From assembly GCF_023015805.1 (NCBI RefSeq), contig NZ_JALKBA010000002.1, forward strand, positions 372,001 to 436,000: DNA of 64,000 bases. The letters are read 5' to 3'. Below, in pieces: positions 35,614 through 62,839 of the stretch. Numbering within the stretch: the stretch's first letter is position 1; each line of letters opens with the position of its first letter. Below the pieces are notes generated by a model. That model did not search any database. It was given only the letters and a program-made list of their open reading frames with translations, and was not told the origin of the DNA. The DNA comes from Cellulophaga sp. F20128 (lineage in GTDB: Bacteria; Bacteroidota; Bacteroidia; Flavobacteriales; Flavobacteriaceae). The position numbers and the translations under genes were made by a program.

Positions 35614-36216
35614 CATTTGGAAGTGTTTACTATTTAATTTTTCTGTTGTAACAGCGGTTTCAACGGGCCATTATTTATTACTTCTAAGTCTTTAGCTTCT
35701 TCTTATAACATTTGGGAAACACCGTTAAATGACCTGTCTATACTTTAGTTCGAATCAAAAAACTACAATTTCTTTTTACTTTTCAGCTCCATATCTAAAT
35801 TATTTTTGAGCTGTTAGGTAACTTTTAACAGGGCTTCAATTTTGGAATAATGCTTCAATTTAGGGGCTACTCTAGCAAACTAAAGTAGTCTTACAAGGTT
35901 AACGTTTCTGTGTCCAAATTTATTTAAGTTAAATGCTTCTTTATCCCTATTTTAAAGGGTTTTTTAGGGAGTTAGCCCATGTCCTAATGCTCATTAGGAC
36001 ACTTTTTAAGCGCATACTTTGTCCTAATTTTTCTTTTAGGTCGATTTTCACTGTGTATTGTGGTAAAATCGTAAGGTATTAGTCTTTATATTAATTAATC
36101 TTTATTTCAAATGTTAAAAAACAAATTTTATGATATAAAACACCAATGCTAAAAGTTGTGCTCTTTTCGGGAGTAGCCTTAACTAAGAATAAATAACAAT
36201 CAAAAACCTATTAAGA
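35614..36216. other. intergenic region (603 bp) carrying the susC promoter
   Basis: No gene is visible. A weak hairpin CCCT...AGGG followed by six T (about 35945-35966) could end transcription from the regulator. Two GTCYTA palindromes follow (listed separately), then TAAAATCG at 36064-36071 as a poor -7 candidate. That leaves a leader of about 140 bases before susC. Confidence 0.55.
35981..36042. promoter_or_regulatory. paired palindromic operator upstream of susC (40-bp period)
   Basis: Site 1 (35981-36000) is GTCCTAATG-CT-CATTAGGAC, a perfect 9-bp inverted repeat. Site 2 (36021-36042) is GTCCTA-N10-TAGGTC. The two begin exactly 40 bp apart with a 20-bp spacer between them. The same arrangement occurs at 58393-58454. 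This is typical of a dimeric regulator bound twice on one DNA face; the propeller-AraC protein just upstream is the obvious candidate. Confidence 0.7.
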
Positions 36217-39200
36217 ATGAAATTTAAAAACTTAAAAAAGTACCAACGAAAATATGCTTGCCTCATAAGGATGTTGCCAGCAGTATTAATTTTGTTTGCA
36301 TTTACGCCTTTAAAGGCAGGTTCTACCCTAAATGTATATAATCTAGTAGTTCAACAAGAAATAAGTGGAACCATTGTAGATGCATCAGGAAACCCTATTC
36401 CGGGCGTAAATGTATTAGTGGTAGGTATGACTACAGGTACAATGGCAGATTTTGATGGAAAATATACGATAACTGCAAATGACGGACAAGTACTGCGTTT
36501 TTCCTCTATTGGTTACAAAACCATAGATGTTACTGTAGGAGCTCAGGCATCTTATAATATAACAATGGAAGAAGATGTGAATAGTTTGAATGAGGTTGTT
36601 GTAGTTGGGTATGGCTCAACGATTAAAAGAAATTTAACAAGTTCAGTAGCCACAGTATCAGCCGATGAGATGGCTGAAATTCCAGCGACGTCATTAAGTA
36701 ATGCCATTGCAGGAAGATTAGCTGGGGTTACTATTGAACAAAGTAATGGTAAACCCGGTAGTACTTCAGCAATAACTGTAAGAGGTGCTACATCTGGTGG
36801 TTTTGCAGGAAATAGTCTTCCTCTTTATGTTATTGATAATGTAATTGCAACTAAATCACTGTTTGACGCATTAGATGTTAGTGAAGTAAAAAATGTAACT
36901 GTTTTAAAAGATGCAGCATCGGCGGCAGTATACGGTGCAAGAGCTGCAAACGGAGTGGTTTTAGTGACTACCAAAACAGGAAAAAGTGGAAAATCTGTGA
37001 TTAACTTCACACAAACTATTGGTACTACGGAACCGACAAATATTCCCCCAATGATGAATGCTTTTCAAAAAGCTACTATAAATGAAAGTCAAATGGATTT
37101 TAATGGTGTGCCTGCAAATGACGCAGCGAGACTGAACCAAACCGAATGGGATTATCTTAAAAACTACAAGAGTCAGACCTTTGCAGAGGAAGCTTCGGGA
37201 TCACCTGTTTTAACTAGAACAGCACTTTCAGCTTCAGGTGGGTCAGAAAAAATAACCTATTTTATGTCGGGATCTTATGTTAATCAAACTGGAGATTTCG
37301 CAAAACTCAAGTATAAAAAAACAAATTTTAGAGCTAATGTGGCGGCGGATATCACAGAAAACCTAAATGTTTCTATGAACATGAGTACTAATAATGACGT
37401 GAGAGACGAATTTTATTGGAGATGGAATGGGAGTGATGAAGATTTTGGAGATTTTTATAGAACCGCGAATAGGACTGGAATTTTTGCACCTGGTATTCAC
37501 AACGGCGAATATGTAGCAAACTTTAACGGTTGGAATCCTGTGCATTTAGCAGATGGAGGTGCGGGTAATAATACGCGTAAAGCTAGAAATATCAATGCTA
37601 TTATTGATGTAAACTATAAAGTTCCGTTTGTAGAGGGGCTAACTGCAGGTTTAACCTACAACAGATTGAATCAAAGAACAGATCAAACCTTATTTAAAAA
37701 AGTAACGCGTGATGTTACTTTTGGTGTAGATCCTAATAATCGTTTTCTTCTTACAGATGACATATTAGGTGTAAGAGTAAGAAGTGATGACGGAGCCGAT
37801 TCTGATAGTTTAGAAGAGGGAACTGCGGAAGAAGATTCTTATCAATTTAATGCAAGAGTTGCTTATAATAAAGTTTTTGGTGATCACACTGCTAATGGTT
37901 TTTTTAATTATGAAGTTTGGGAGCGCTATGATCGCAATTTTTGGGGTAGAAGACGTGGATTGCAAACAGAATTTGTTACTCAGTTATTCGCTACAGACCC
38001 AGCTGCGGAAAGTCAATTTGCCAATGGTGGCGGTGGTGAATTTGGAAGGGCCTCTTATATTGGTGGATTAGGATATAATTATAAGGAGAGATTATTTATA
38101 AACACAACGTTCAGATACGATGGTTCTACTAAATTTTCTGAAGCTGAACGCTGGGGATTCTTTCCTTCAATTTCATTAGGTTGGATTGCTTCTGACGAAA
38201 GCTTTATGTATGATAATACTATTTTTGACTTTCTTAAAGTAAGATTTTCTGCAGGTACTACTGGAAATGACAATGTTGGGAGTTCAAATTTTCCCTACCT
38301 TCAAAGTTATAATGTTGGCGGATCTGGAGCTGTTTTTGGAGAATCAGAATCTACTTCAAACTCTGCAGCAATTGGGCCACAGCCAGACATTTTTATCACC
38401 TGGGAAAAGCAAACTTCATATAACTTAGGTTTTGATATGCAATTTTTAGAAAGTAAGTTGTCAACTACTCTTGATATTTGGAAAAATGTAAAAACAGATT
38501 TATATGGTAGTAGGCAAGAGTTTATACCATCTTCTTCAGGATTAACGCTAGGAAATACGAATTACGGAGGCATTGATATTAAGGGTATTGATCTAGTAGC
38601 TTCTTATAAAGACAATTTAAGTGAAGATTTTAGCTTTGACCTAGGGTTTAATTTGGGTTATGCAAAAGATAAATATACTAGTTTGGACGAACCAGAAACG
38701 AGAAGAGGATATGAATTATTATTAGGGAATGGAACCAGTAGAATTTGGGGACTTACTGCCTTAGGAATTATTAGAACTCAAGAACAATTAGATGATTTAA
38801 TAGCTTCCGGTTATACTTATAATAATGCTGCTCCCCAAATTGGAGCCTTGTATTATAAGGATTTAAGAGGGAACGCTCAAGTTGATCCAGATGGGAATAC
38901 ACCTGATGGTAATATTGATGGTAATGATAATAGTTATATTGGTTCAGCCGGCACGGCACCAGTATCTTATGGTGTCCGATTAAATTTAAATTACAAACGT
39001 TTTAGCTTACAAGCTTTCGCTCAAGGTTTTGCAGGACATCAAGCTTACCAACCAGCAAACAACAGATTTAATTTTGGAGGCTATGAAAACGCGGCACATA
39101 TACAATTTGTTGATTCTTGGACCCCAGATAATATAAATGCATCAATGCCTAGATTTGGTTCTCCAGGTCAAGATGCTAACTCAACATTTTGGTTGCAAGA

Positions 39201-39414
39201 CGCAGATTTCTTACGAATGAAAAACTTAAATCTCGCATACGACATACCTGAATCTATTGTTTCTAAAATAGGAGCAGAAAGAATTAGCATATTTGGTAAC
39301 GGAACAAATCTATTTATGATTTATAGTAAAATTGATGAATTTGATCCAGAGACAAGTGGAAGGGGTATTCCTGTAAATAGGTCTTATAGTTTGGGTATTA
39401 ATGTTACATTTTAA
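36217..39414 (+). CDS. SusC-like TonB-dependent outer-membrane transporter
   Basis: A 1065-residue outer-membrane protein, of normal SusC length. After a signal peptide (about 1-35) comes the carboxypeptidase-regulatory-like domain (ISGTIVDASGNPIPGVNV, about 49-125). The SusC/RagA signature NEVVVVGYGS follows, then the plug (AGVTIEQSNGKPGSTSAITVRG, YGARAANGVVLVTTK) and a 22-strand barrel ending in the aromatic SLGINVTF. It imports oligosaccharides in complex with the SusD lipoprotein encoded 8 bp downstream, driven by TonB. The promoter region carries the paired palindromes. A fucan oligosaccharide is the inferred cargo. Confidence 0.96.
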   Translation: MKFKNLKKYQRKYACLIRMLPAVLILFAFTPLKAGSTLNVYNLVVQQEISGTIVDASGNPIPGVNVLVVGMTTGTMADFDGKYTITANDGQVLRFSSIGYKTIDVTVGAQASYNITMEEDVNSLNEVVVVGYGSTIKRNLTSSVATVSADEMAEIPATSLSNAIAGRLAGVTIEQSNGKPGSTSAITVRGATSGGFAGNSLPLYVIDNVIATKSLFDALDVSEVKNVTVLKDAASAAVYGARAANGVVLVTTKTGKSGKSVINFTQTIGTTEPTNIPPMMNAFQKATINESQMDFNGVPANDAARLNQTEWDYLKNYKSQTFAEEASGSPVLTRTALSASGGSEKITYFMSGSYVNQTGDFAKLKYKKTNFRANVAADITENLNVSMNMSTNNDVRDEFYWRWNGSDEDFGDFYRTANRTGIFAPGIHNGEYVANFNGWNPVHLADGGAGNNTRKARNINAIIDVNYKVPFVEGLTAGLTYNRLNQRTDQTLFKKVTRDVTFGVDPNNRFLLTDDILGVRVRSDDGADSDSLEEGTAEEDSYQFNARVAYNKVFGDHTANGFFNYEVWERYDRNFWGRRRGLQTEFVTQLFATDPAAESQFANGGGGEFGRASYIGGLGYNYKERLFINTTFRYDGSTKFSEAERWGFFPSISLGWIASDESFMYDNTIFDFLKVRFSAGTTGNDNVGSSNFPYLQSYNVGGSGAVFGESESTSNSAAIGPQPDIFITWEKQTSYNLGFDMQFLESKLSTTLDIWKNVKTDLYGSRQEFIPSSSGLTLGNTNYGGIDIKGIDLVASYKDNLSEDFSFDLGFNLGYAKDKYTSLDEPETRRGYELLLGNGTSRIWGLTALGIIRTQEQLDDLIASGYTYNNAAPQIGALYYKDLRGNAQVDPDGNTPDGNIDGNDNSYIGSAGTAPVSYGVRLNLNYKRFSLQAFAQGFAGHQAYQPANNRFNFGGYENAAHIQFVDSWTPDNINASMPRFGSPGQDANSTFWLQDADFLRMKNLNLAYDIPESIVSKIGAERISIFGNGTNLFMIYSKIDEFDPETSGRGIPVNRSYSLGINVTF

Positions 39415-39422
39415 AAAATAAT

Positions 39423-41237
39423 ATGATGAAAATAAAAAATATAAATAAAGTTTTGATACTGTGTTGTTCTTTGGTTTTTATCCAATGTACTGAAGATGCA
39501 TTAGACAAAACCGATTTAGGAGCAATTAGTTCAGATGTCATTTGGAGTGATCCGCATCTTGCTGAGGGGTTTGTAAATAATATATACACACGAGCACTAC
39601 CAGGATGGAATGTAAACGCTTCTAGGGCTACAGATGATGCTCAGGGTGCAGACGCACTAATGTATGGTGAAGTAGGAGCAGGATCGCAAGGTATGTATGG
39701 GGGTAGTTACACCACAATTAAAGATATTAATATCTTATTAAGAGATGTTGGTTCTGGAACTATTTCGGTTGAAGATCAGGATATATTGAAAGGGCAAGCT
39801 CTCTTTTTTAGAGCATACCTTTATTTTAGATTGGTTTCAACTTATGGTGGAGTTCCTATAGTGTTGGAAGCCAAAGATCAATCTGATGTTGAAGCTTTAA
39901 AAGTTCCTAGAAATAAAACTTCAGAATGTATGACACAAATTTTATTGGATATGGATGCAGCAATAGCCGCATTACCAGATTCTTATGATGATTCGGATTA
40001 CGGAAGAATTACCAAAGGTGCTGCTATGGCTATGAAAGGTAGAATATTACTTCATTATGCTAGTGAGCAATTTGATCCTACACAAAGTGCCAACCGTTGG
40101 CAAGCTGCCTATGATGCAAACAATGCAGCTTTAACCTATTTGGAATCTCAGGGAAAAGGATTGCATCCTGATTATGCTGGATTATGGTTTGAAGAAGGTG
40201 GGTCTAATATAGAGGCTATAATGGTTAGAAATTATACTTTAGACCAATCACACAATCGCGACGCAGGTTGCCGCCCTTTTATAACTGGAACCAATGGAGA
40301 ATCTTTTGATAAACCTACTAAAGGATTGGTAGATGCTTTCCCCATGAAAGATGGTAAGGCTATTGATGATGTTACAAGTACGTATACCTATGATGATACC
40401 GCACTTTGGTTAAACAGGGATCCTAGGTTTGAAGCAACTATAGCTTGGAATGGTTCTATTTGGCCTTTGAATAACCCAGCGCCCAACCGTACCAGTGATT
40501 TAGAATGGACTTTTCAGTTGAGTGCTGTAAACGGTGAATCGGATTCTAGAATTACTGCAACTAGTTTTAACTGTAGGAAAGCAATTGATGGCACTATAGA
40601 AGGTGGTGCAGCTAGTTTGAGCTCACCAACTGATTGGATTGAAATTAGATTTGCAGAGGTGTTGTTAAATTTAGCAGAAGCAGCCAATGAGATTTCTAAT
40701 TTTCCTGTTGCCTATGATGCCTTAACAAAAATTAGGGATAGAGCAGGGATAGATCCTGGAGTAGATAATCTATATGGGTTAACTGCAGCTATGACTCAAG
40801 ACCAGTTAAGAGATGCTATACTGCTTGAAAGAAGATTGGAGTTGGTTTTTGAAGGTAAAAGATCACAAGATTTAAGAAGACGAAGAATGTATGCAACAGT
40901 ACTTAATGGTACCCATAGATTTGGGTATGAAATTCGGAAGACAGCCGCCTTTGATGCATTAGATGGTACAGCTTTAGTACTAGATGACAGAAAAGCCTTA
41001 GAAGTGGGTGTTTTGGATGGTAGTATCAATCTAGATGATCCCACGGAGTACAATACGTATTTTGAAACCAACCTAAGAAGTTTGGAGCGTTTTGGTAGTG
41101 TTCTTGTAGATGGTGATCCAATCAATTATTTGGACCAATATTATTTCTATGACATTCCTCAAGGGGACTTAAATAAAAATGTAAACCTTGAGCAAACTGC
41201 AGGTTGGCCAGGTGGAACTTTTGATCCATTAGAATAG
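39423..41237 (+). CDS. SusD/RagB-like glycan-binding lipoprotein
   Basis: A 604-residue surface lipoprotein (lipobox FIQC, Cys22) of the SusD/RagB family. The N-terminal region TDLGAISSDVIWSDPHLAEGFVNNIYTRALPGW, the helix GQALFFRAYLYFRLVSTYGGVPIVLE and the C-terminal ILLERRLELVFEGKRSQDLRRR are typical. It forms the lid of the SusC transporter and first captures the oligosaccharide. It lies 8 bp after susC and is followed by a strong terminator. At 604 residues it is a little longer than many SusD proteins, without an obvious extra domain. Confidence 0.95.
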   Translation: MMKIKNINKVLILCCSLVFIQCTEDALDKTDLGAISSDVIWSDPHLAEGFVNNIYTRALPGWNVNASRATDDAQGADALMYGEVGAGSQGMYGGSYTTIKDINILLRDVGSGTISVEDQDILKGQALFFRAYLYFRLVSTYGGVPIVLEAKDQSDVEALKVPRNKTSECMTQILLDMDAAIAALPDSYDDSDYGRITKGAAMAMKGRILLHYASEQFDPTQSANRWQAAYDANNAALTYLESQGKGLHPDYAGLWFEEGGSNIEAIMVRNYTLDQSHNRDAGCRPFITGTNGESFDKPTKGLVDAFPMKDGKAIDDVTSTYTYDDTALWLNRDPRFEATIAWNGSIWPLNNPAPNRTSDLEWTFQLSAVNGESDSRITATSFNCRKAIDGTIEGGAASLSSPTDWIEIRFAEVLLNLAEAANEISNFPVAYDALTKIRDRAGIDPGVDNLYGLTAAMTQDQLRDAILLERRLELVFEGKRSQDLRRRRMYATVLNGTHRFGYEIRKTAAFDALDGTALVLDDRKALEVGVLDGSINLDDPTEYNTYFETNLRSLERFGSVLVDGDPINYLDQYYFYDIPQGDLNKNVNLEQTAGWPGGTFDPLE

Positions 41238-41282
41238 TTTAAACAATGTTGAAATAGAGTTTGTTAGAGTTTATTTAGTTTA

Positions 41283-41313
41283 AAAGAGACTGCCATAAAC
41301 AGTCTCTTTTTTT
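41283..41313 (+). terminator. rho-independent terminator after susD
   Basis: AAAGAGACTG-ccataaa-CAGTCTCTTT is a perfect 10-bp stem with a 7-base loop, running into a T-run that ends at 41313. It lies 45 bp after the susD stop and before the VCBS genes, which therefore need read-through or their own promoter. Confidence 0.9.
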
Positions 41314-41411
41314 AATTCTGTAAATTAGACATAATTTAAAATTGTATGATGACATTCACATGTAACCAATCAGAAAAAGCAAAGAATACATTCAAGGTTT
41401 GTGTTGTAAAT

Positions 41412-44400
41412 ATGACAACAAGGCTAAGGGGGCAAAGTATCTATTTGCTCTGTCTATTGACTTTCACTTTAAGTGGTTTTTCACAATTAAAAGAGGATTC
41501 TAAAGATAAGGAGGTATTTACCTTATTAAGTCCCGAACAAACCAAAGTATATTTCAATAATACCCTAACCCAAACAGCAGAAAACAATATTTTTGTATAC
41601 AAAGGTTTTTATAAAGGAGGTGGCGTTGCTGTTGGTGATCTTAATAATGATGGGTTGTTAGATCTTTACTTTACAGGAAACCAGGTTGGTGATAAATTGT
41701 ACCTAAACAAAGGTGACTTGCAGTTTGAGGATATTACCCAAGAGGCCGGTATACTAGATAAGAAAGGCTGGTCTACCCATGTAAGTATTGTAGATATTAA
41801 TAATGATGGTTTTAAGGATATTTATGTGTGCAAAAGCCTTTATGATTCAAATCCTGAGTTAAGAGAGAATGAACTTTATATCAACAATGGGGATCTAACA
41901 TTTACCGAGGCGGCTGCGGCCTACAATCTCAATGATAGTAATAGAACTACAGAAGCTAATTTTTTTGATTATGATAGGGATGGTGACTTTGATGTATTTT
42001 TGATAAACCAACCTAAAAATTCATCCTTTCTTGCACCAGCCACAAATGAACCAAAAATTGAACCTAGGCAGAATTACAGATTACTAGAAAATACGGCTGA
42101 TGGTTTTCGGCAATCTGCAACCAATGGTGGACTTAGTAATTTTGGATACGGGCTAAGTTCTAGTATCGCTGATTATAACAATGATGGTTGGCAAGATATT
42201 TATGTAGCCAACGATTATATAGGGCCAGATTTTTTCTATATCAATAATAAGGATGGCACTTTTACTAATAAAATTTATGACAATGTACAACACACCTCTT
42301 ACTTTAGTATGGGGTCAGATGTTGGCGATATTAATAATGACGGCTGGTTAGATTTTGTGGTTTTAGATATGGTAGCAGAGGATAATTACAGACTTAAAAG
42401 TAATATGAGTTCTATGAATCCGGCAGAGTTTTGGGAGAATGTTAGTCGTGGTGGGCATTACCAATATATGTTTAATACTCTTCAATTAAATAATGGGGTC
42501 ACCCAAAATGGGGAGCTTAAATTTAGTGAAATTGCACAAATGGCAGGAGTTTCTAGTACAGATTGGAGTTGGTCCCCACTTTTGGCAGATTTTGATAACG
42601 ATGGTCGTTTAGATCTCTTTGTAACCAATGGTATAAGACATGAGATTGGCAATACGGACGCCTTAAAACAATTAGACCAATATGTTGGGGAAATTGATAA
42701 AAAATACAATACCAAGAATGATAAATCATTTGATGCTTGGCAGTACCTAAACCTAGAGAAACTATTGGCTTTCTTTCCGTCAGATAAGATTAAAAATTAT
42801 ATGTTTCACAATACCAACGGGCTTAAATTCAATAAGGTTACAGATCAATGGGGGCTTTCCCAAGAAACATTTTCTACAGGAGCTGCTTATGGAGATTTAG
42901 ACAATGATGGAGATTTAGATTTGATCGTTAATAATATTGATGAGGTTGCTTATATCTATAAGAATAATACCAATGAAAATAGCAATAACAATTACCTTCG
43001 AATAAAATTTTTAAAGGCTAAAAAAGAACAAAGTTTCTTTGGTACAAAAGTAAGTTTATATCATAAAAATGGATTGCAAATATCAGAGCTTACTAATGCA
43101 CGTGGAATAAATTCCAGTAGTGAAGATCTGGTGCATTTTGGCCTTGGAACTAATTTAAAAGTGGATAGCTTACACATAAGTTGGGCTAATGGAACAACTA
43201 CGTTGCTAAATAACATCAAAGGAAATAGGACAATTGTTGTTGACTATGATAAGGTGAAAAAGCAAGCAACCAAAGTTCCTAACGAGAAAATTCCAAATTT
43301 CCAAGAGGTTACCAATGCGGCTGCTATAGATTTTATACACAAAGAAAATCGTTTTGATGATTACGGTAGAGAAGTTTTGCTGCCGCATAGAATGTCTACT
43401 TTGGGTTCTGGTGTGGCTATTGGCGATGTAGATGCTAACGGATTGGATGATTTTTATATTGGTGCCCCCAATGAAGGCCTTGGGAAAATATTTAAACAAC
43501 AAGAGGATGGCACTTTCCAGGGGAGCTATCTGAGTCTTTCCCCAGACCTAGAAAGGGAAGATATGGGAGCCGTTTTTTTTGATGCAGATAATGACGGGGA
43601 TCAAGATTTATATGTGGTTTCTGGAGGCAATGAATTTTCCCTTGAGGCAGACAATTACCAAGATAGAATGTATCTCAATAACGGAGAGGGAAAATTTGTG
43701 TTGGCTAATACCGCCTTGCCCGTTATAAAGGCAAGTGGTTCAAGGGTAAAAGTAGCCGATTACGATCAAGATGGAGATCTAGATTTGTTTGTTGGTGGGC
43801 GTCAGGTTCCTGGACATTATCCCGAGCCTGCCCAAAGTTATTTGTTAACAAACCAATTGGTAGAAACTGGGGAATTGAAGTTTGAAAAAACTGAAGAACA
43901 ACTCTTAGGTAAATTAGGAATGGTTACAGATGCTGTATGGACAGATTTTGATGGAGACCAAGATTTGGATTTAGTGGTTACTGGTATGTGGATGCCCATA
44001 ACGGTATTAGAAAACAGGAATGGGGCTTTTGTTAATAGCACTCAAAAATTAGGCTTGCAAGATACTACTGGTTGGTGGTTTAGCATAGCCAAGGAAGATA
44101 TGGATGGAGATGGAGATGATGATTATGTATTGGGTAATTTAGGCGTCAATTATAAATACAAAGCCTCAGCAAGCGAGCCTTTTGGAGTGCATTATGGAGA
44201 TTTTGATAATAATGGACACAATGATATCGTATTAAGCTATTATAATTATGGCACTCAATATCCTTTAAGGGGAAGATCTTGCTCTTCACAGCAGATTCCT
44301 AGCATCAAGGAAAAATTTGGCACCTATAATGAGTTTGCCTCCTCTAGCCTAACGGAGGTTTATACGGAAGCTTCCTTGGAGAAAGCCCTACAGTATGAGG

Positions 44401-44774
44401 TAAAAACTTTTGAAAGTGTTAGTATTGAAAATAAAGGTAATGGGGACTTTACCATTAGAGCCTTACCAGATTTGGCACAAATATCAAATATTAATAGTGC
44501 TGTAATTTACGATGTAGACAAGGATGGTATTAAGGATATTATTATTGCTGGAAATTTATATGGTTCTGAAATAGAAACTACTAGGAACGATGCTAGTTTA
44601 GGGTTGCTTTTAAAAGGTAAGAAAGGCTTTAATTTTGAGGCTGTTCCTATGGGAGATAGCGGATTAAACCTTCCAGAAGACGTAAAGGAATTAAAACTTA
44701 TAAATTATGGTGACCAAAAAGCTTTGGTGGTAGCTGTAAATAATGGAAGACTAAAACTGATCAAAATAAACTGA
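41412..44774 (+). CDS. VCBS/FG-GAP repeat protein with ASPIC/UnbV domain (tandem copy 1)
   Basis: About 1120 residues. I choose ATG 41412, where a signal peptide starts (MTTRLRGQSIYLLCLLTFTL); the open frame extends to 41346 with hydrophilic residues. Many calcium-binding repeats (for example DLNNDGLLDLYFTGN, DINNDGFKDIYVCK, DYDQDGDLDLFVGGR) suggest a beta-propeller. A central ASPIC/UnbV domain (FGTKVSLYHKNGLQI, HFGLGTNLKVDSLHISWANG) divides the two halves. No catalytic motif is visible. Such proteins follow SusCD in many Bacteroidota loci and are probably secreted or surface-attached glycan-binding proteins. The gene is paralogous to the next one. Confidence 0.82.
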   Translation: MTTRLRGQSIYLLCLLTFTLSGFSQLKEDSKDKEVFTLLSPEQTKVYFNNTLTQTAENNIFVYKGFYKGGGVAVGDLNNDGLLDLYFTGNQVGDKLYLNKGDLQFEDITQEAGILDKKGWSTHVSIVDINNDGFKDIYVCKSLYDSNPELRENELYINNGDLTFTEAAAAYNLNDSNRTTEANFFDYDRDGDFDVFLINQPKNSSFLAPATNEPKIEPRQNYRLLENTADGFRQSATNGGLSNFGYGLSSSIADYNNDGWQDIYVANDYIGPDFFYINNKDGTFTNKIYDNVQHTSYFSMGSDVGDINNDGWLDFVVLDMVAEDNYRLKSNMSSMNPAEFWENVSRGGHYQYMFNTLQLNNGVTQNGELKFSEIAQMAGVSSTDWSWSPLLADFDNDGRLDLFVTNGIRHEIGNTDALKQLDQYVGEIDKKYNTKNDKSFDAWQYLNLEKLLAFFPSDKIKNYMFHNTNGLKFNKVTDQWGLSQETFSTGAAYGDLDNDGDLDLIVNNIDEVAYIYKNNTNENSNNNYLRIKFLKAKKEQSFFGTKVSLYHKNGLQISELTNARGINSSSEDLVHFGLGTNLKVDSLHISWANGTTTLLNNIKGNRTIVVDYDKVKKQATKVPNEKIPNFQEVTNAAAIDFIHKENRFDDYGREVLLPHRMSTLGSGVAIGDVDANGLDDFYIGAPNEGLGKIFKQQEDGTFQGSYLSLSPDLEREDMGAVFFDADNDGDQDLYVVSGGNEFSLEADNYQDRMYLNNGEGKFVLANTALPVIKASGSRVKVADYDQDGDLDLFVGGRQVPGHYPEPAQSYLLTNQLVETGELKFEKTEEQLLGKLGMVTDAVWTDFDGDQDLDLVVTGMWMPITVLENRNGAFVNSTQKLGLQDTTGWWFSIAKEDMDGDGDDDYVLGNLGVNYKYKASASEPFGVHYGDFDNNGHNDIVLSYYNYGTQYPLRGRSCSSQQIPSIKEKFGTYNEFASSSLTEVYTEASLEKALQYEVKTFESVSIENKGNGDFTIRALPDLAQISNINSAVIYDVDKDGIKDIIIAGNLYGSEIETTRNDASLGLLLKGKKGFNFEAVPMGDSGLNLPEDVKELKLINYGDQKALVVAVNNGRLKLIKIN

Positions 44775-44779
44775 TTCTT

Positions 44780-48112: not shown

Positions 48113-48260
48113 TAGTAAAAAAAGCTAGGAGGTTGAATAGGAAATTTTTTAACCCATCAGTAGAATTAGTAGGCCCAGTGGAAAGGGTGTTGAAGTACAA
48201 AAATATTTTATAAAAATATAAATATTAATAAATTAACAAAGTATAAATAAATCAAAGTGA

Positions 48261-50330: not shown

Positions 50331-50383
50331 TGCCTAAAATGAATAACAATGGATGACCAAATTAAACTTAATAAAATCAATTT

Positions 50384-52822
50384 ATGAAAACTATAATTTT
50401 ACAAATTGCTCTTGTTGCTACTTTGTTTGTGTCTTGTTCCAGTGATAATGGAATGGTATTCACGGCTGGTGATTTAATGATAGGAATGAACGGCAAAGGA
50501 GCAATTGTTGAACTTGAAGACCAAAAATCTAAGACAAATTATTTATTTAAGGATACGGTTCCAAATACAATTTTAGCCATAAAAGTAAACGGAAAATTAG
50601 AATATCCGCAGACCATAAAGGCCAACGAAGACGGGAAAACTCTGGTTCTAGAATATCCTAAAAATATGGTAGAAGCCCAGTTGCAAGTGGTGGAAAAAGA
50701 AAATTACCTCACTTTTGAGCTAATTGCTATAACCAAGGAAGCCGAGATAGAACTGGTACTTTGGGGCCCCTTTAAAACTACCATCCATCAAACTGTTGGA
50801 GAAACTATTGGGGTTGTTCGGAATTCGGAATTCTCCATAGGGATACAAGCTTTAAATTTGCGAACTTTAGGCGGCTACCCCTTAGAAGATGGTGATGATG
50901 GTACCCCTTCCTATAATATATTTGGTACTACAAGTTTGGTTGATGTTTCTGATTCTTTGCAAATCTTATACCGTGGGCATACAGCTTTACCTAAGGATTA
51001 CGGCAGTTCCATACAAGCCTATACTAGAAATAGAAGTAAAGAGCGCATTGTTAAGACTATGAATCACCAAAGTTATGTGGCACCAATTTATAAAGATCTC
51101 GGCATCATAGGTTCTAAAATAGCACTTTTTGGTTGTGCGCCAGAAGAGGTGTTAAATACCATAGAAAAAATTGAACTGGCAGAAGGGTTGCCGCATCCAA
51201 CATTAAATGGGGAATGGGCAAAACGTTCAAAACTAGCATCTTCTGCTTATCTAATTCAGAATTTTGGAATGGAATCTATTGACGAAGCCATTGCCTTAAC
51301 AAAAAAGGCAGGGTTAAAATATTTGTACCAATCAGGTCCCTTTAAAAATTGGGGCCAATTTGATTTGTATGACGATGCATTTCCTGATAATTGGGAGAGC
51401 TTTAAGGCGTGTGTGCTTAAGGCGGAAAAAGAGGGGATAAAACTTGGAGTACATACACTGTCGAATTTTATAACAACCAATGATGCCTATGTTACCCCTG
51501 TTCCAGACAAGCGATTAGCCAAAGTAGGTGCTAGTAGCTTGGTGAACGATATTGATGCTTTAGCTAAAAACATTGAGATTAATGATCCTGTATTTTTTAA
51601 CCAAATGAAAAATAATAGTCTTCATACAGCAATGTTAGGGGACGAATTAGTGCGGTATGAATCAGTTTCGGAAACTGCTCCGTGGATCTTGAAAAACTGT
51701 GAACGAGGTGCTTTTGGTACTCAACCAGCAGTTCATAAAAAAAATACTATGATTTCTAAATTAGCAGATCACGGTTATAAAACATTCTTAACAAGTGCAG
51801 AACTTGGAAAAGAAATGTCTGCTACACTTGCTGATTTTTATAATAAAACCGGCACCAAACAGATCTCATTTGACGGTCTTGAAGGTAATTATTCTACTGG
51901 AATGGGTGCCTATGGAGAGTTATTATTTGTAGACAGTTGGTATCAAAATTTAGCCCCAGAAATAAAGAATGATTATATAATGGATGCTAGTAAACCTGGT
52001 CATTATTTCTGGCATATGTTTACCCGTATGAACTGGGGAGAACCATGGTACGCCGGTTTTAGAGAAAGTCAAACTGCTTATAGGTTGCTCAATCAAGATT
52101 ATTTTAGGAGAAATTTTATACCTAGTATGTTGGGTTGGTTTAGCATGCGGGCTACCACCAGTTTAGAAGATATAGAATGGATGTTAGCCAGGAGTGCAGG
52201 TTTTGATGCCGGATACGCCTTGGTAACCTCACCAAAGCTCATTGCGGAGAATGGATTTGGCGATGAGATTTTGGAAAAAATTAAACAATGGGAAAGAGCA
52301 AGAACCTCAAATTCATTTTCTGTGGAACAGAAGAAGAAAATGGAGGATATAAATAATGAATATACTTTGCAGACCGTTTCTGATGATAGCTGGAATTTAA
52401 TCCCCTATGATGTAAGTAGGTTTGAACATCAATTGAAAATTAGGCAACCAGGAGAACCTGTTTGGACAGAATTTGAATTGGAAAATAAAAATGTAGAACA
52501 GCCATTGCAGTTTATTCTAACAACAAAAAATAGCACAATTTCTAATATCAGTATGGAAATAGATAACTATAAAAAAATTGTTTTTAATATCAGTTTAGCA
52601 CCAAAACAGTATTTAAAATATACTGGAGGTAATGAAGTTATACTATACGATGAAACTTGGCACAAGATTAAAAGTATAACTGTAGATCCTCAGAAATTAA
52701 ATATGGCATCGGGTTCGCATAAGTTAAAAATTGATTGTAAATTTTCGGCTAAGGAAGATGCTAGTTTAAAACTAGAAGTAAAAACTGTTGGTAATTCAGA
52801 AAATATTCTAATGAAAAAATAG
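50384..52822 (+). CDS. unassigned TIM-barrel glycoside-hydrolase-like lipoprotein
   Basis: An 812-residue lipoprotein (lipobox FVSC, Cys18). The first 270 residues are beta-rich, then a barrel-like region shows alternating strands and helices (AIALTKKAGLKYLYQSGPFKNWG, GIKLGVHTLSNFITTND). TKQISFDGLEG puts Asp497 at the end of a strand, a typical nucleophile position. FWHMFTRMNWGEPWYAG and MLGWFSMRATTSLEDIEWMLARSAGFD follow, then a C-terminal beta-domain from about 690. I recognise no named family. The gene lies downstream of the GH36-like gene in the same direction and is probably co-transcribed. A terminator follows at 53.03 kb. Confidence 0.65.
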   Translation: MKTIILQIALVATLFVSCSSDNGMVFTAGDLMIGMNGKGAIVELEDQKSKTNYLFKDTVPNTILAIKVNGKLEYPQTIKANEDGKTLVLEYPKNMVEAQLQVVEKENYLTFELIAITKEAEIELVLWGPFKTTIHQTVGETIGVVRNSEFSIGIQALNLRTLGGYPLEDGDDGTPSYNIFGTTSLVDVSDSLQILYRGHTALPKDYGSSIQAYTRNRSKERIVKTMNHQSYVAPIYKDLGIIGSKIALFGCAPEEVLNTIEKIELAEGLPHPTLNGEWAKRSKLASSAYLIQNFGMESIDEAIALTKKAGLKYLYQSGPFKNWGQFDLYDDAFPDNWESFKACVLKAEKEGIKLGVHTLSNFITTNDAYVTPVPDKRLAKVGASSLVNDIDALAKNIEINDPVFFNQMKNNSLHTAMLGDELVRYESVSETAPWILKNCERGAFGTQPAVHKKNTMISKLADHGYKTFLTSAELGKEMSATLADFYNKTGTKQISFDGLEGNYSTGMGAYGELLFVDSWYQNLAPEIKNDYIMDASKPGHYFWHMFTRMNWGEPWYAGFRESQTAYRLLNQDYFRRNFIPSMLGWFSMRATTSLEDIEWMLARSAGFDAGYALVTSPKLIAENGFGDEILEKIKQWERARTSNSFSVEQKKKMEDINNEYTLQTVSDDSWNLIPYDVSRFEHQLKIRQPGEPVWTEFELENKNVEQPLQFILTTKNSTISNISMEIDNYKKIVFNISLAPKQYLKYTGGNEVILYDETWHKIKSITVDPQKLNMASGSHKLKIDCKFSAKEDASLKLEVKTVGNSENILMKK

Positions 52823-53058: not shown

Positions 53059-53164
53059 GCCTTGGACAATATAAAAATACTGTATATATTCTCGTTGGAG
53101 CCACGGATTAAAGGGGTCTATATTACGGGGATTTGAATAAAGTGTTGTGCGGGTCTTGTTCAAC

Positions 53165-53178: not shown

Positions 53179-53430
53179 CTTGGTTCTTGTTATAAAGAAT
53201 AATGAAAAAGTAAAAATTTGTGTTAATTAACTTTCCGGTAGTGTTGCTATTTTAAAGCAAATGGAAGCTGAATTGCACGAAGGGATAGGATAGTAATTTC
53301 AAATGAGAAGAGAATTGGGCCTTGGCTACCATTGAATTACTGTGGTCAATAGGGGTGAAAGAACATAAAAATTTAATAAGTTTGGAGTAGTAAAATGACA
53401 CCGAATTAACCCCAAATAAATATAAAATCA

Positions 53431-53472
53431 GGACCTAAAAATTTTTGAACATATTTTGTGAGCACAGAATAA
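53431..53472 (+). pseudogene. possible decayed GH29 C-terminal tail
   Basis: The frame reads GP-KNF-stop-TYFVSTE-stop, against KNFSSYFVSRD-stop at the end of the propeller-GH29 gene. The DNA TATTTTGTGAGCA is identical in both, and the stop codon is in register. Upstream, NIKSGP faces IIKADAEP with a small gap. The match is short, so it is suggestive only. Confidence 0.4.
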
Positions 53473-53494
53473 AATTGGATATTAGAAAATTGAT

Positions 53495-54277
53495 ATGGAT
53501 TTAAATTTAAAAGATAAAATTATAATTGTTACCGGCGGTTCCAAAGGAATTGGAAAAGGTATTGTTACTGTTTTGGCAAATGAAGGAGCAATCCCGGTAA
53601 TTATAGGCCGCGACAAAGAAAGTGTAGCCAAGGAGTTGCAGTTCATAAAAGACAGCGGCGGTGATGCTTTTTCTGCTATAGCAGAACTTACAGATCCAAA
53701 ACAATGTGAAGCCGCAGTGCAGTCGGTTATTGAAAAGTATGGACGTATAGACGGACTTGTGAATAATGCAGGAGTTAATGATGGAGTAAGTCTAGAAAAT
53801 GGGAATTATGAAGATTTTTTACAATCTATAAATCGCAATATTACCCACTATTATCTAATGGCACACTATGCCTTAGCTGAGCTTAAAAAAAGTAAGGGTG
53901 CAATTGTGAACATTGGATCTAAGACAGGAGAAACAGGGCAAGGCGGTACCTCAGGATATGCGGCTTCTAATGGAGGGCGAAATGCGCTGACACGAGAATG
54001 GGCAGTAGAGTTGTTGCCATTTAGTATACGTGTTAATGCTGTTATTGTTGCGGAATGTTATACTCCTTTATATGATAGGTGGATTAAAACTTTTGAAAAT
54101 CCAGAAGAAAAACTAAAGGCAATTACCTCTAAAATTCCCTTAGAAAATAGAATGACAACAGCTGAGGAGATCGCCAATATGGTGGTCTTTTTGTTGTCTT
54201 CAAAATCAAGTCATACTACCGGACAATTGATCTATGTAGATGGTGGCTATACACATTTAGATAGATCATTAACATAA
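53495..54277 (+). CDS. SDR dehydrogenase, probable L-fucose dehydrogenase
   Basis: A 260-residue cytoplasmic SDR with TGGSKGIGKG, VNNAGVN, the GSKTGETGQGGTSGYAAS loop seen in L-fucose dehydrogenases, and the closing YVDGGYTHLD. It would oxidise L-fucopyranose to the lactone as the first step of the non-phosphorylating route. Position immediately before fucP and the mutarotase supports this. Oddly, the YxxxK motif reads Tyr155-Ala-Ala-Ser-Asn159, so the usual catalytic lysine is missing, although the rest of the active site looks normal. Activity may survive through another base, or the enzyme may belong to a lineage with a changed motif. Confidence 0.82.
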   Translation: MDLNLKDKIIIVTGGSKGIGKGIVTVLANEGAIPVIIGRDKESVAKELQFIKDSGGDAFSAIAELTDPKQCEAAVQSVIEKYGRIDGLVNNAGVNDGVSLENGNYEDFLQSINRNITHYYLMAHYALAELKKSKGAIVNIGSKTGETGQGGTSGYAASNGGRNALTREWAVELLPFSIRVNAVIVAECYTPLYDRWIKTFENPEEKLKAITSKIPLENRMTTAEEIANMVVFLLSSKSSHTTGQLIYVDGGYTHLDRSLT

Positions 54278-54300
54278 CCAAATTAAAACCAAAAATTAAA

Positions 54301-55617
54301 ATGAAAAATACAGAAAGAATACCCGTGGTGCCAAAAAATATGGTGATCCCCTTTATATTAGTAACTTCATTATTTGCATTGTGGGGGTTTGCAAATGCGG
54401 TAACAGACCCGATGGTTTCTGCCTTTAAGAAAGTATTAGAGCTTAGTAATACCCAGGCATCTATGGTGCAAATGGCCTTCTATGGTGGTTATTTCTGTAT
54501 GGCATTGCCGGCGGCAATGTTTATGCGTAAATATTCGTACAAAACAGGAATTTTAATTGGTTTGGGTTTATATGCAGTAGGTGCATTGTTGTTTTACCCA
54601 GCAGCAATTACAGAGCAATTTTGGTTTTTTTGTTTGGGACTATACGTGCTTACCTTTGGATTGGCGTTTTTAGAAACAGCGGCAAACCCCTATGCTTTGG
54701 CAATGGGAGCCAAAGAAACTGCTACGCAACGTTTAAACCTAGCTCAGGCATTTAATCCGGTTGGTTTAATAGGTGGCTTGTTTGTAGCCCAACAATTTGT
54801 CTTAAAAAATTTAAAGTCCGATGATATTCAGGATTTTAGTGCTTTGGATGAAGCCTCTAAAATCTTAGTAAGAACTTCAGATTTAATGGTAATCCGCGAC
54901 CCGTATGTTATTCTAGGATTGGTGTTAATTGGTGTTTTTATTTTGTTTGTTATTAGCAAAATGCCACAATCTAAGGATGAAGGAGGAATGCCAAGCATGG
55001 GGGATACTTTTAAAGCATTGATCTCTAATAAAAAATATGTACTGGGAGTCTTAGCGCAAATATTATATGTAGGAGCACAGATTATGTGTTGGACCTATAT
55101 TTATCAATACGCTGAGGCAATAGCAATGGATAATGTAACTGCCGGATATTATCAAATGGCAGCATTTGTTATCTTTACACTTGGACGTGCGGTAGGTGTT
55201 TATTTATTGCGCTTTTTAAGTGCAGGAAAATTATTGATGATTTTCGCATTGCTTGCCATGGTATTTATTGCAGGAACAATATTTATAGAAAGTATTGTTG
55301 GGCTGTATTGTTTGGTAGGGGTGTCTTTTAGTATGTCCTTAATGTTCCCGACAATTTACGGTATCGCTTTGGGAGATTTAACGGAAGAGCAATCTAAAGT
55401 GGGTTCTGCAGGTTTAATTATGGCGATTGTTGGTGGGGCTTTAATGCCTGCCTTACAAGGAATGATTATAGATGCTGGCGGATCAGGTGTAAGTGATACA
55501 ACAATAGCAGGTGTGTCTGAGGTGAATTTCTCATTTATTTTACCACTTGCCTGTTTTGTTTATATTGCCTGGTACGGATATACAGTTTATAAAAAACATG
55601 AAACAATAACTGCTTAA
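54301..55617 (+). CDS. fucP: L-fucose:proton symporter (MFS)
   Basis: A 438-residue inner-membrane protein with about 12 transmembrane helices, the normal FucP length. The start FALWGFANAVTDPM has Asp36 at the place of the proton-coupling Asp46 of E. coli FucP. FLETAANPYAL holds the conserved glutamate of the second key site. GYFCMALPAAMFMRKYSYKTGI is the family loop between helices 2 and 3. It imports L-fucose freed in the periplasm. It lies 23 bp after the dehydrogenase and 11 bp before the mutarotase. Related members carry glucose/galactose, but the context points to fucose. Confidence 0.92.
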   Translation: MKNTERIPVVPKNMVIPFILVTSLFALWGFANAVTDPMVSAFKKVLELSNTQASMVQMAFYGGYFCMALPAAMFMRKYSYKTGILIGLGLYAVGALLFYPAAITEQFWFFCLGLYVLTFGLAFLETAANPYALAMGAKETATQRLNLAQAFNPVGLIGGLFVAQQFVLKNLKSDDIQDFSALDEASKILVRTSDLMVIRDPYVILGLVLIGVFILFVISKMPQSKDEGGMPSMGDTFKALISNKKYVLGVLAQILYVGAQIMCWTYIYQYAEAIAMDNVTAGYYQMAAFVIFTLGRAVGVYLLRFLSAGKLLMIFALLAMVFIAGTIFIESIVGLYCLVGVSFSMSLMFPTIYGIALGDLTEEQSKVGSAGLIMAIVGGALMPALQGMIIDAGGSGVSDTTIAGVSEVNFSFILPLACFVYIAWYGYTVYKKHETITA

Positions 55618-55628
55618 AGTTTATAAAG

Positions 55629-55958
55629 ATGAAAAGACATTGTTTAGCCCTGGATCTAGTGGATGATGAAAAGCTGATACAAGCCTATGAAGAATATCAT
55701 AAAGAAGTCTGGCCCGACATTATTACAAGTATAAAAGAATCTGGTATTCTAGACATGCAAATCTATAGAGTAGGGAATCGTATGTTTATGATTATGGATG
55801 CCGATGATGATTTTTCCTTTGAAAAGAAGGCCAAAATAGATGCCAAGTATCCGGCCAATGTAGAATGGGAAGAGCTCATGTGGAAATACCAACAAGCCCT
55901 TCCAATAGCCAAGCCGGGAGAGAAGTGGATGTTGATGAAAAAAGTATTTCAATTGTAA
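55629..55958 (+). CDS. L-fucose/L-rhamnose mutarotase (RhaM-type)
   Basis: A 109-residue dimeric alpha/beta-barrel protein of the YiiL/RhaM family, full length. Motifs include RHCLALDLVDDEKLIQAYEEYHKEVWPDI with the catalytic His, YRVGNRMFMIMD and the closing PGEKWMLMKKVF. Family members speed interconversion of alpha and beta anomers of deoxy sugars; in fucose clusters this type serves L-fucose and supplies the anomer used by the dehydrogenase. It sits between fucP and the metallophosphoesterase, and its stop overlaps the next start (TAATG). Confidence 0.88.
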   Translation: MKRHCLALDLVDDEKLIQAYEEYHKEVWPDIITSIKESGILDMQIYRVGNRMFMIMDADDDFSFEKKAKIDAKYPANVEWEELMWKYQQALPIAKPGEKWMLMKKVFQL

Positions 55959-56962
55959 TGAAACGTAGAAAGTTTGTAAATCATATGGGATTTGGGGTCG
56001 CCGCAACTGTGGTGCCGCAAACCTTGATTTCGTTTAAGCCAAATAGGGATAAGAAAATAGCAAAGCCCTTAAAATTTGGTATAGTTTCGGATGTTCATAA
56101 AGATTTAATCCCGGATGCCGATGAAAGATTGGAAAAGTTTATCGCAACGGCAACAGCCCAAAAAGTAGACTTTATAATTCAATTGGGGGATTTTTGTTTT
56201 GCGGATCCTAAAAATTTAGATTTTCTAGGAATTTGGGAATCTTTTCAAGGCCCTAAGTTTCATGTATTGGGGAATCATGATATGGATAAAAATTCCAAAT
56301 CTGAAATGTTAGATTTTTGGGGCATGCCCAAAACCTATTATTCGTATGATTTTAATGGGGTTCACTTTATCGTATTAGATGCTAATTTTTTATATCAGGA
56401 TGGAAAGTTTGTAGATTATGAGCGCGCAAATTTTTATGTGAATGATAATGAGCGCACTTATATTAATGATGAACAAATAGCTTGGTTTAAGGGTGACCTT
56501 GAAGCAACAAAATTGCCAACGATAGTATTTTCGCATCAAAGTTTATGGCATTACCAATGGGGTATAAAGAATCGGTTAACGATTCAAAAGATTTTGGAAG
56601 CAAACGAATCAAAAATCATTTGCTGTATGAATGGCCATAATCATTTGGATTTTCATCACCAACAAAACGGTATAGATTATATTGAGGTTAATAGCATGTC
56701 TTATCAATGGATGTCTGAACCCTATACGTCTGCGGATCGGTTTCCGAAGCACTATTACAAAGAGTATGGCAATTTACCACATATCGCAGCCTACAAGGAT
56801 CCTTTGTATGCGGTTGCAACCATAGACCCTAAAGGTACTATGCAGATAGAAGGGGTTAAAAGTGAATGGCTTGCTCCCTCACCTTACGACATGGGAATGC
56901 CAAAGGGTATATATGGATCAGAATTCACGGCGGAAATGTCTAACTACAAATTAAAGTTTTGA
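55958..56962 (+). CDS. Tat-exported calcineurin-like metallophosphoesterase
   Basis: A 334-residue protein starting at ATG 55958, which shares an A with the mutarotase stop; the frame upstream merely overlaps that gene. The N-terminus MKRRKFVNHMGFGVAATVV has a twin-arginine signal. All five metallophosphoesterase motifs are present: VSDVHKDL, LGDFCF, LGNHDMD, FSHQSLW and NGHNHLD. It should be periplasmic, unlike its catabolic operon partners. The substrate is unknown; phosphate or sulfate-linked sugar debris is possible. The tight coupling suggests a steady link with fucose use. Confidence 0.82.
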   Translation: MKRRKFVNHMGFGVAATVVPQTLISFKPNRDKKIAKPLKFGIVSDVHKDLIPDADERLEKFIATATAQKVDFIIQLGDFCFADPKNLDFLGIWESFQGPKFHVLGNHDMDKNSKSEMLDFWGMPKTYYSYDFNGVHFIVLDANFLYQDGKFVDYERANFYVNDNERTYINDEQIAWFKGDLEATKLPTIVFSHQSLWHYQWGIKNRLTIQKILEANESKIICCMNGHNHLDFHHQQNGIDYIEVNSMSYQWMSEPYTSADRFPKHYYKEYGNLPHIAAYKDPLYAVATIDPKGTMQIEGVKSEWLAPSPYDMGMPKGIYGSEFTAEMSNYKLKF

Positions 56963-57006
56963 GGCTTTAAAAATTATTAAAATAATAGTTCAATTAAATA
57001 AGATTG

Positions 57007-58167
57007 ATGAGTAAAAAAGAGATTAAAATAGATACTAGGTATCCCTCAGTAGATGATTTACGTACTAGGGCTCAGCAACGGATTCCAAAATTTGCTTTCG
57101 AATATCTAGATGGTGGTTGTAACGAAGATGTGAATTTACATAAAAATACGGCGGAGATTAGGAAGGTAGAATTGTTGCCGAGCTATTTAAACAAGCATAC
57201 ACATTCTAATATGAAAACGGAATTGTTTGGTCATACCTATGATGCTCCATTTGGGATTGCTCCGGTGGGTTTACAAGGGTTAATGTGGCCAAATGCACCC
57301 GAAATATTGGCCAAAGCTGCGTTTGAACACAATGTGCCATTTATATTAAGCACGGTTACTACAACTAGTATTGAGCGTGCTGCAGAGATTACGGAAGGAA
57401 AATCATGGTTTCAACTGTACCATCCAACAGAAGATAGAGTAAGAGATGACATAATTAATAGAGCAGCCGCTGCAGAATGCCCTGTACTTGTAATTTTGTG
57501 TGATGTTCCTACCTTCGGTTTCCGACCAAGGGATATAAGAAATGGATTGGCTATGCCACCAAAAATGTCTGTTAAAAACATTCTGCAAGTCTTGGGGAAA
57601 CCAAATTGGGCTATGCAAACTTTAAAACACGGTCAGCCTAATTTTGAAACCTTAAAACCATACATGCCTAAGGGCTTAGATTTGGCGCAATTGGGTAAAT
57701 TTATGGATGCTACCTTTTCAGGCCGATTGAATGAGGAAAAGATAAAGCCAATTCGCGATATGTGGAAAGGTAAATTAGTTTTAAAAGGAGTGGCAAATGA
57801 AGCGGATGTAGACAAGGCCTTAAAATTAGGGATAGATGGCGTTATTGTTTCCAATCATGGCGGAAGGCAGTTAGATGCTGGTGAATCTACCATTGCGCCT
57901 TTAACTAGAATCGCAAAGAAGTATGGCAAGGAGCTTACGGTTATGATGGATAGTGGCTTGCGTTCTGGTCCGGATATTGCAAGAACCTTGGCAAAAGGCG
58001 CTCAATTTACATTCATGGGACGTTCTTTTATGTACGGAGTTGCAGCCTTAGGAGCAAAAGGAGGAGACCATACTATATCATTATTAAAAACAGAATTACA
58101 ACAGGTTATGGAGCAAATTTGTTGTGAAGAAGTAGCAGATTTTCCAAATCATCTGATTGTAAAATAA
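57007..58167 (+). CDS. lldD: FMN-dependent L-lactate dehydrogenase (alpha-hydroxy-acid oxidase family)
   Basis: A 386-residue enzyme, normal LldD length. Marks of the FMN family are the N-terminal RIPKFAFEYLDGGCNED, APFGIAPVGLQGLMWP, WFQLYHP, and the active-site VSNHGGRQLDAGEST holding the catalytic His-Arg, then MMDSGLRSGPDIA and FMGRSFMYG. I use ATG 57007 instead of the TTG one codon before. It would oxidise the L-lactate made by the diketo-deoxy-fuconate hydrolase to pyruvate, completing the route. It closes the operon and is followed by a terminator 62 bp later. Confidence 0.88.
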   Translation: MSKKEIKIDTRYPSVDDLRTRAQQRIPKFAFEYLDGGCNEDVNLHKNTAEIRKVELLPSYLNKHTHSNMKTELFGHTYDAPFGIAPVGLQGLMWPNAPEILAKAAFEHNVPFILSTVTTTSIERAAEITEGKSWFQLYHPTEDRVRDDIINRAAAAECPVLVILCDVPTFGFRPRDIRNGLAMPPKMSVKNILQVLGKPNWAMQTLKHGQPNFETLKPYMPKGLDLAQLGKFMDATFSGRLNEEKIKPIRDMWKGKLVLKGVANEADVDKALKLGIDGVIVSNHGGRQLDAGESTIAPLTRIAKKYGKELTVMMDSGLRSGPDIARTLAKGAQFTFMGRSFMYGVAALGAKGGDHTISLLKTELQQVMEQICCEEVADFPNHLIVK

Positions 58168-58229
58168 ACTACAGATCAACCTAAATTTATAACGGAATAA
58201 AAGGCGTATTTGCGCCAGAAGGTATACTC

Positions 58230-58280
58230 AAAATGCTGGGAGAGAAGAACTTTGTGTTCTGCTTTACCAGCATTTTTTTT
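58230..58280 (+). terminator. rho-independent terminator of the fucose operon
   Basis: AAAATGCTGG at 58230-58239 pairs with CCAGCATTTT at 58267-58276, with an inner AGAAC/GTTCT stem, and a T-run extends to 58280. It lies 62 bp after the lactate dehydrogenase stop. Confidence 0.88.
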
Positions 58281-58392
58281 ATAGGGGTTGCATGGATTCT
58301 TAAACCTTTAGACCAGCTGTTTGGGGTTTAAATTTCACTTTTGAAATTCTACATGGATAAGGTATATGTCTTATAAAAACAATAGAATGTAG

Positions 58393-58454
58393 GTCCTACT
58401 AAGCATTAGGACAGATTTAATTAAAATAAAATGTCTTAGGAAATCACTTGGGTC
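58393..58454. promoter_or_regulatory. paired palindromic operator upstream of the NPCBM hydrolase gene (40-bp period)
   Basis: Site 1 (58393-58412) is GTCCTACT-AAGC-ATTAGGAC. Site 2 (58433-58454) is GTCTTA-N10-TGGGTC. The starts are exactly 40 bp apart with a 20-bp spacer, the same as upstream of susC, and a TAANNTNN box lies at the same offset after site 2 in both. The start codon is 70 bp downstream. Confidence 0.7.
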
Positions 58455-62828: not shown

Positions 62829-62839
62829 AACCAATTTTT

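Follow-up and report, generated by a model that had tools for sequence, protein, structure and literature searches.

A 64,000-nucleotide stretch of the Cellulophaga sp. F20128 genome (family Flavobacteriaceae; contig NZ_JALKBA010000002.1, positions 372,001 to 436,000 of the forward strand), hereafter called the window and numbered from its first letter, carries two distant promoters that share the same pair of short sites at the same spacing. One pair precedes a susC gene, and the other precedes a gene encoding an NPCBM protein. The question raised by this locus is which protein recognizes the paired sites and what it does there. On the sequence evidence presented below, the sites are very probably the operator of a propeller-AraC protein encoded just before susC, arranged as for a class II activator at two promoters of a single fucose-rich glycan locus.

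The paired element in the window and in its genome

At the susC promoter, the distal site (site 1; 35981 to 36000, forward strand) is GTCCTAATGCTCATTAGGAC, a near-perfect palindrome with 9 of 10 pairs complementary, at predicted positions -95 to -76. The proximal site (site 2; 36021 to 36046) comprises GTCCTAATTTTTCTTTTAGGTC at 36021 to 36042, i.e., GTCCTAAT...TTTAGGTC, and then a conserved GATT. A -7-like box, TAAAATCG, lies at 36064 to 36071, and transcription is predicted to start at ~36076. The NPCBM-gene promoter, on the same strand, repeats this layout. Its site 1 (58393 to 58412) is GTCCTACTAAGCATTAGGAC, with 7 of 10 pairs complementary; its site 2 (58433 to 58458) comprises GTCTTAGGAAATCACTTGGGTC at 58433 to 58454, i.e., GTCTTAGG...TTGGGTC, and then GTCA, departing from GATT; and its -7-like box, TAATTTTA, lies at 58476 to 58483, with a predicted start at ~58488. 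The predicted leaders between start and gene are 141 bases for susC and 37 bases for the NPCBM gene. In both pairs, the starts of sites 1 and 2 are 40 bp apart, the spacer is 20 bp long, and the box follows at an identical offset. An earlier interpretation made from the DNA letters (the sequence-only reading) had given these positions and this spacing, which match the window exactly, and the coordinates likewise bear out the common offset that it had noted for the box. It had also described two palindromes at each promoter; this holds for site 1, and site 2 proved only partly symmetric when arms were counted over the 11 elements introduced below.

In the window, the four sites were the only matches to a loose half-site pattern. 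Across the 4.17-Mb genome, the pattern GTCYTA-N8-10-TRGGNC gave 11 matches (7 forward and 4 reverse), 6 of which were the four window sites, two being counted on both strands. The other five were unpaired and lay on other contigs. Because a reversed control pattern gave 7 matches (3 and 4), single half-sites were regarded as background, only the pair being special, and a genome-wide excess of the half-site pattern was rejected.

Two profile models were built, R1 from nine elements including the two of the window, and R2 from the nine elements outside it, which had never seen the window. In the genome of origin, R1 scored the window copies at 73.1 and 54.3 bits and nothing else above 15.2 bits. 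R2 ranked the same copies first (63.1 bits; E value, 8e-17) and second (28.3 bits; E value, 5.7e-6), followed by a match of 15.0 bits (E value, 0.079); besides the two window copies, no match fell below an E value of 0.07. The second window copy is clear but weaker than the first. The scan for the spaced pair that the sequence-only reading had suggested found no third copy in the 4.17-Mb genome, and there was no series of copies upstream of unrelated genes.

Conservation of the element and its co-occurrence with the regulator

The predicted binder is a propeller-AraC protein of 961 amino acids (32728 to 35613, forward strand), which was characterized using Pfam, hydropathy, AlphaFold2, Foldseek, and its orthologues. 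It consists of a signal peptide, Reg_prop propellers, a Y_Y_Y domain, one transmembrane helix, and an AraC-type helix-turn-helix (HTH) domain (HTH_18 E value, 2.5e-18; PF12833 at residues 877 to 958). The last is a two-HTH AraC domain, as expected of an AraC/XylS output domain. Neither a histidine kinase nor a receiver was matched in Pfam at an E value of 0.001; besides Reg_prop, Y_Y_Y, and HTH_18/HTH_AraC, there were just weak propeller families. The AlphaFold2 model (mean pLDDT, 76.8) places the transmembrane helix at residues 797 to 821, a cytoplasmic helix at 845 to 863, and the HTH helices at 874 to 957, with a short linker joining the transmembrane helix to the HTH domain. In Foldseek, the sensor was nearest that of the heparin sensor BT4663 (best match, 4a2l_D; TM-score on the target of 0.83 for 4a2m_A).

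A search for homologues of the regulator returned 36 loci, of which four were taken as orthologues; in the other 32, the match was confined to the HTH or was to the sensor at 22 to 27% identity. The orthologues are from Kriegella aquimaris (62% identical), Arenibacter aquaticus (61%), Aestuariibaculum suncheonense (50%), and Arenibacter certesii (53%, truncated at a contig edge). A further regulator, 50% identical, was found in genome G238. The AraC domain is 63 to 79% identical in the four full-length orthologues, versus 50 to 62% for the whole protein. Taking the window, the four orthologue loci, and G238 together, the element was found upstream of susC in 6/6 regulator loci. In G238 the regulator and susC are divergent, yet the susC element is present. 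Spacers are mostly unconserved across the element loci, whereas the element itself is conserved.

Five further promoters bring the number of elements to 11. One is the window's own NPCBM-gene promoter. Two lie upstream of orthologous NPCBM genes, in Kriegella (52% identity) and in A. aquaticus (51%), and a third, in A. aquaticus, precedes a 975-amino-acid paralogue of the NPCBM protein (52% over 557 residues). The remaining copy, on a separate contig of G238, precedes an operon whose genes are related to those of the window. This operon encodes a SASA esterase (41% identical to the product of the window gene at 62840), a 692-amino-acid protein (64% identical to that of the window gene at 48261), and a DUF2961 protein (73% identical to that of the gene just after the window). 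The operon mixes genes of both predicted window units (described below), which argues that the element follows function through rearrangement.

Regulator and element were then compared across 397 genomes of the family, with an E value of 1e-120 as the threshold for the regulator. R1 matches of >40 bits occurred only in G000, G129 (apparently Kriegella), G115 (apparently Aestuariibaculum), and G238, which are exactly the four genomes with the regulator. A strong element was therefore present in 4/4 genomes with the regulator and in 0/393 without it, the best R1 match among the latter being 26.4 bits. The R1 training set included neither of the G238 copies, which scored 42.5 and 40.8 bits. The sequence-only reading had proposed a local regulon with the propeller-AraC protein as its likely binder and had named a lack of conservation in related genomes as a point that would tell against it. 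The element is kept in related genomes, and the comparison favors the protein as the likely binder.

At an E value of 0.01, 42/397 genomes had an R1 match, the four true holders included. The weak matches (≤26.4 bits) were taken as noise; the best of them, in G019, sits inside a 145-amino-acid open frame. Among the 32 other homologue loci and the five other Reg_prop loci of the Cellulophaga genome, R1 gave three matches at an E value of ≤1, the best at 17.0 bits. Among relatives of G129, the regulator was found in 2/247 genomes and matches of >26.4 bits in the same two; this set overlaps the family sample and added no new holder. Nor was a further holder found in the genus of G238 (1/4) or that of G115 (1/5), and an order-level sample, searched for the regulator only, yielded 1/395, the genome of origin. 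Since these samples yield no extra holder, the regulator is rare.

Some related loci are arranged in ways of their own. In Kriegella (L010:6903-12883) and A. aquaticus (L011:6898-12880), the NPCBM-gene element is followed by the NPCBM gene and then by the regulator gene. This order suggests positive autoregulation in those genomes; in the window, the regulator gene has no R1 element. Directly before the susC element of K. aquimaris (L010:14181-14500) lies a decayed AraC-HTH-like stretch with stops in all three frames, 40% identical over 65 residues to the regulator HTH and perhaps a remnant of a second regulator copy. In A. certesii (L013:2881-4893), a truncated susC is followed by a GH31-type frame, and the predicted operator sequence before susC is still conserved.

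Promoter geometry and the competing explanations

Over the 11 elements, 80/110 arm positions of site 1 are complementary (shuffle mean, 28.8), with 5 to 9 of 10 positions symmetric in each element. For site 2, the count is 56/121 (shuffle mean, 28.6). None of 2,000 shuffles reached the observed value at either site. Site 1 is a true palindrome. Site 2 has half symmetry only, and its most conserved part is the asymmetric right arm, mostly GGTCGATT. The distance of 14 to 16 bp between half-site centers suits two facing AraC domains better than the two HTH units of one monomer, given the known half-site geometry of AraC.

The elements were aligned on GGTCG/GGACG, which is present in 11/11 and is followed by ATT in 9/11. 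The distance from the first G of this motif to the TA of a box of the form TAnn.T(T/C) is 25 bp in 11/11 elements; at each of 51 other offsets tested, a TA occurs in ≤3/11. Site starts are 40 to 41 bp apart across the elements, and site centers are 41 bp apart in the window. A report on Flavobacterium psychrophilum places the sigma-A box TAnnTTTG at -12 to -5 (PMC9723704). On this scale, GGTCGATT lies at predicted positions -37 to -30 and covers the -33 position. A TTTG around -33 is described for Bacteroides fragilis; the same account did not find it in F. johnsoniae (PMC7366714). In our set, TTTG was found at -36 to -33 in 0/11 promoters, and one promoter has a TTTG starting at -41. A site thus covers the upstream promoter element at a fixed distance from the predicted core in 11/11 promoters, which is the arrangement of a class II activator.

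From this geometry and the architecture of the regulator we propose the following course of events. The periplasmic propeller/Y_Y_Y sensor would bind an oligosaccharide cut from the glycan, as its relative BT4663 suggests. The signal would cross the single membrane helix, and the cytoplasmic AraC domains would dimerize or reposition; with neither kinase nor receiver in the protein, this step would involve no phosphotransfer. To judge from symmetry and spacing, one AraC pair would sit on the distal palindrome and another on the proximal site, ~41 bp (i.e., four helical turns) downstream and on the same face of the DNA. At the proximal right arm, over -33 and 25 bp from the -7 TA, the protein would replace the missing -33 contact. 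The bound protein would recruit sigma-A polymerase by class II activation, and both units (susCD and NPCBM protein) would be switched on together.

Several observations weigh against this reading. The six regulator loci all come from one family, three of the four co-occurring genomes contributed to R1 training, and the A. certesii locus is damaged, its susC stopping after 95 codons. The second window copy is off consensus (GGTCGTCA, TAATTTTA), and its R2 score of 28.3 bits is barely above the best R1 noise match in other genomes. R1 found no element at the other island genes (225 to 32122 and 53495 to 58167) or at the regulator gene. When arms were re-dealt among rows, the observed complementarity was reached in 367/2,000 trials for site 1 and 1,184/2,000 for site 2; because there is no arm covariation beyond that of re-dealt rows, dimer symmetry is read solely from the symmetry of the sequence. 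Finally, the exact box TAnnTTTG occurs in 0/11 promoters, so the -7 assignment is based on position and conservation.

The alternative that survives best keeps the same protein and makes it a repressor, with site 2 over the -33 region keeping polymerase out as long as no glycan is sensed. A site that overlaps the core promoter fits repression equally well, and the Bacteroides hybrid regulator BT2391 is described as a repressor of its locus (PMC11253607). However, the 11 promoters have neither TTTG at -36 to -33 nor an exact -7 consensus, which suggests that they depend on an activator. We consider repression unlikely, and it shares its binder, and so part of its weight, with the activator reading.

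A different binder is less probable still. The foremost candidate is the cupin-AraC protein (8288 to 9163), an AraC-type regulator of the same island. Of the three other genomes with an element, G129 and G115 have a relative of it (63% and 55% identical, respectively). In G129, the relative lies on the contig of the element, ~25 kb before it (C6:35819 versus 61924). However, relatives at 55 to 63% identity also occur in six of eight examined genomes without a strong element (G011, G001, G018, G002, G203, and G019), and G238, with two elements, has a best relative of only 35%; the cupin-AraC protein therefore does not track the element. When the best match per element locus was considered, it matched the regulator's own HTH in L010, L012, L013, and L050, and in L011 and L118 it had no match at an E value of 1e-4.

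Very improbable is the proposal that site 1 is an intrinsic terminator, with a stem and T tract, and that the two places resemble each other as a by-product of this. Site 1 of susC does score as terminator-like (35980 to 36010; TGTCCTAATGCTCATTAGGACA then CTTTTTAAGC). Yet a run of five T's within 10 bases after site 1 occurs in only 4/11 elements and is missing from 7/11. In G238, where the regulator and susC are divergent, the nearest listed upstream gene on the element's strand ends ~3.5 kb away. A terminator also leaves the fixed second site and the -7 distance unexplained. The T run is carried by three other susC copies besides that of the window, and these four copies of site 1 may have a double role as operator and terminator. 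The weakest proposal is that the element works at the RNA level, as a structured 5' leader; it draws on the ability of inverted repeats to form hairpins. It is scarcely credible, given that the transcription start predicted from the -7-like box, which is conserved, falls downstream of every part of the element, so that none would be transcribed from this promoter, and that the arms show no row-specific covariation.

The glycan locus, known regulators, and implications

The window encodes fucosidase-family proteins (Alpha_L_fucos and Glyco_hydro_95 in Pfam), sulfatases, SASA esterases, and sugar-acid-type enzymes, together with an L-fucose dehydrogenase and a fucose symporter, both above NCBIfam cutoffs. 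Its gene content looks like that of a locus for using a glycan rich in fucose and probably sulfated; to judge from the families, the substrate may be a sulfated fucan. The first predicted unit (36217 to 52822, forward strand) comprises susC, susD, two FG-GAP/ASPIC genes, and genes for 689- and 812-amino-acid proteins, which lie close together and in the same direction. The second (58525 to 63637, forward strand) comprises the NPCBM gene, a fucosidase-like gene, and a SASA esterase gene and probably continues into the DUF2961 gene just outside the window. Both boundaries are predicted, that of the first unit from gene gaps. The two FG-GAP/ASPIC-UnbV proteins after susD are long (1,142 and 1,110 amino acids; 41346 to 48112). 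At 48261 to 52822, the 689-amino-acid protein, whose 64% relative stands under the same element in G238, has no Pfam or NCBIfam match, and the 812-amino-acid protein has no Pfam match; both are candidates for new glycan-active enzymes. The model of the NPCBM protein had a mean pLDDT of 40.3, and no structural reading was drawn from it.

The regulator resembles the BT4663-type hybrid two-component systems (HTCS) of Bacteroides in its Reg_prop and Y_Y_Y sensor, single membrane helix, and AraC-type HTH output and in the location of its gene beside susC. Unlike them, it has no kinase or receiver in the same chain, as judged by Pfam. The Cellulophaga genome encodes six Reg_prop proteins; five have open frames of 1319 to 1457 residues and are presumed, by length, to be HTCS, versus 963 for the regulator, and an S/CHIP motif occurs in four of the five other genes. 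The regulator HTH is 36 to 51% identical to the HTH domains of other loci from the homologue search, versus 29% and 26% to those of two presumed HTCS (L122 and L123). The other three gave no match at an E value of 1e-3: L120 and L121 had none in the region, and a 32% HTH match in L124 falls in a separate 289-amino-acid gene. For 16 HTCS, the sites that Ravcheev and colleagues predicted are direct repeats with a mean distance of 21 bp (PMC3878776), unlike the inverted-repeat site 1 and partly symmetric site 2 described here, ~41 bp apart.

SusR-like regulators (BT3705 and BT3091) are also one-component proteins of susCD loci with periplasmic sensing and two sites per promoter. Their DNA-binding part is described as unlike other families, and their predicted sites are direct repeats at a distance of 67 or 77 bp (PMC3878776). 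The HTH_18 domain and the 40- to 41-bp site spacing set the present system apart from them, as far as that description of the SusR domain goes. BT4673 has the same sensor fold, and its entry 3ott is titled a putative one-component system; the label is uncertain, as 3va6 titles the same protein hybrid two-component, and the comparison covers the extracellular domain, the only part solved, at ~20% identity. We know of no operator for BT4673. The class II AraC-family activators RhaS and MelR of proteobacteria share a proximal site that overlaps the upstream promoter element and a further site upstream. They are soluble and act at sigma-70 promoters, in contrast to the membrane protein and the Bacteroidota -7/-33 promoter considered here. 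The propeller-AraC protein type may not be new, one-component propeller sensors being named in PDB titles (3ott). Among the matches listed in searches of open-license papers, judged by title and the start of the abstract, none concerned this operator, and the listed matches to the motif letters were all unrelated by title.

The predicted operators for propeller-type regulators of glycan loci in the literature cited here are direct repeats from gut Bacteroides, whereas the present one belongs to a kinase-less regulator of marine Flavobacteriaceae. More tentatively, and with less than even confidence, kinase-less propeller-AraC sensors might form a separate operator class in this family, in which a membrane-anchored dimer of dimers would span a pair of inverted-repeat sites separated by four helical turns, and the proximal site would replace -33, unlike the direct-repeat arrangement of HTCS and SusR. 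Such a class might have been born by joining an HTCS-type sensor to the AraC output domain of another lineage. The finding provides a concrete predicted operator and core-promoter geometry that connect two operons of a fucose-rich glycan locus with one sensor, and the element profile allows the regulon to be predicted in further genomes. Moreover, it hints at how activators could stand in for the -33 box in bacteria in whose promoters that box may not be visible, as described for F. johnsoniae (PMC7366714).

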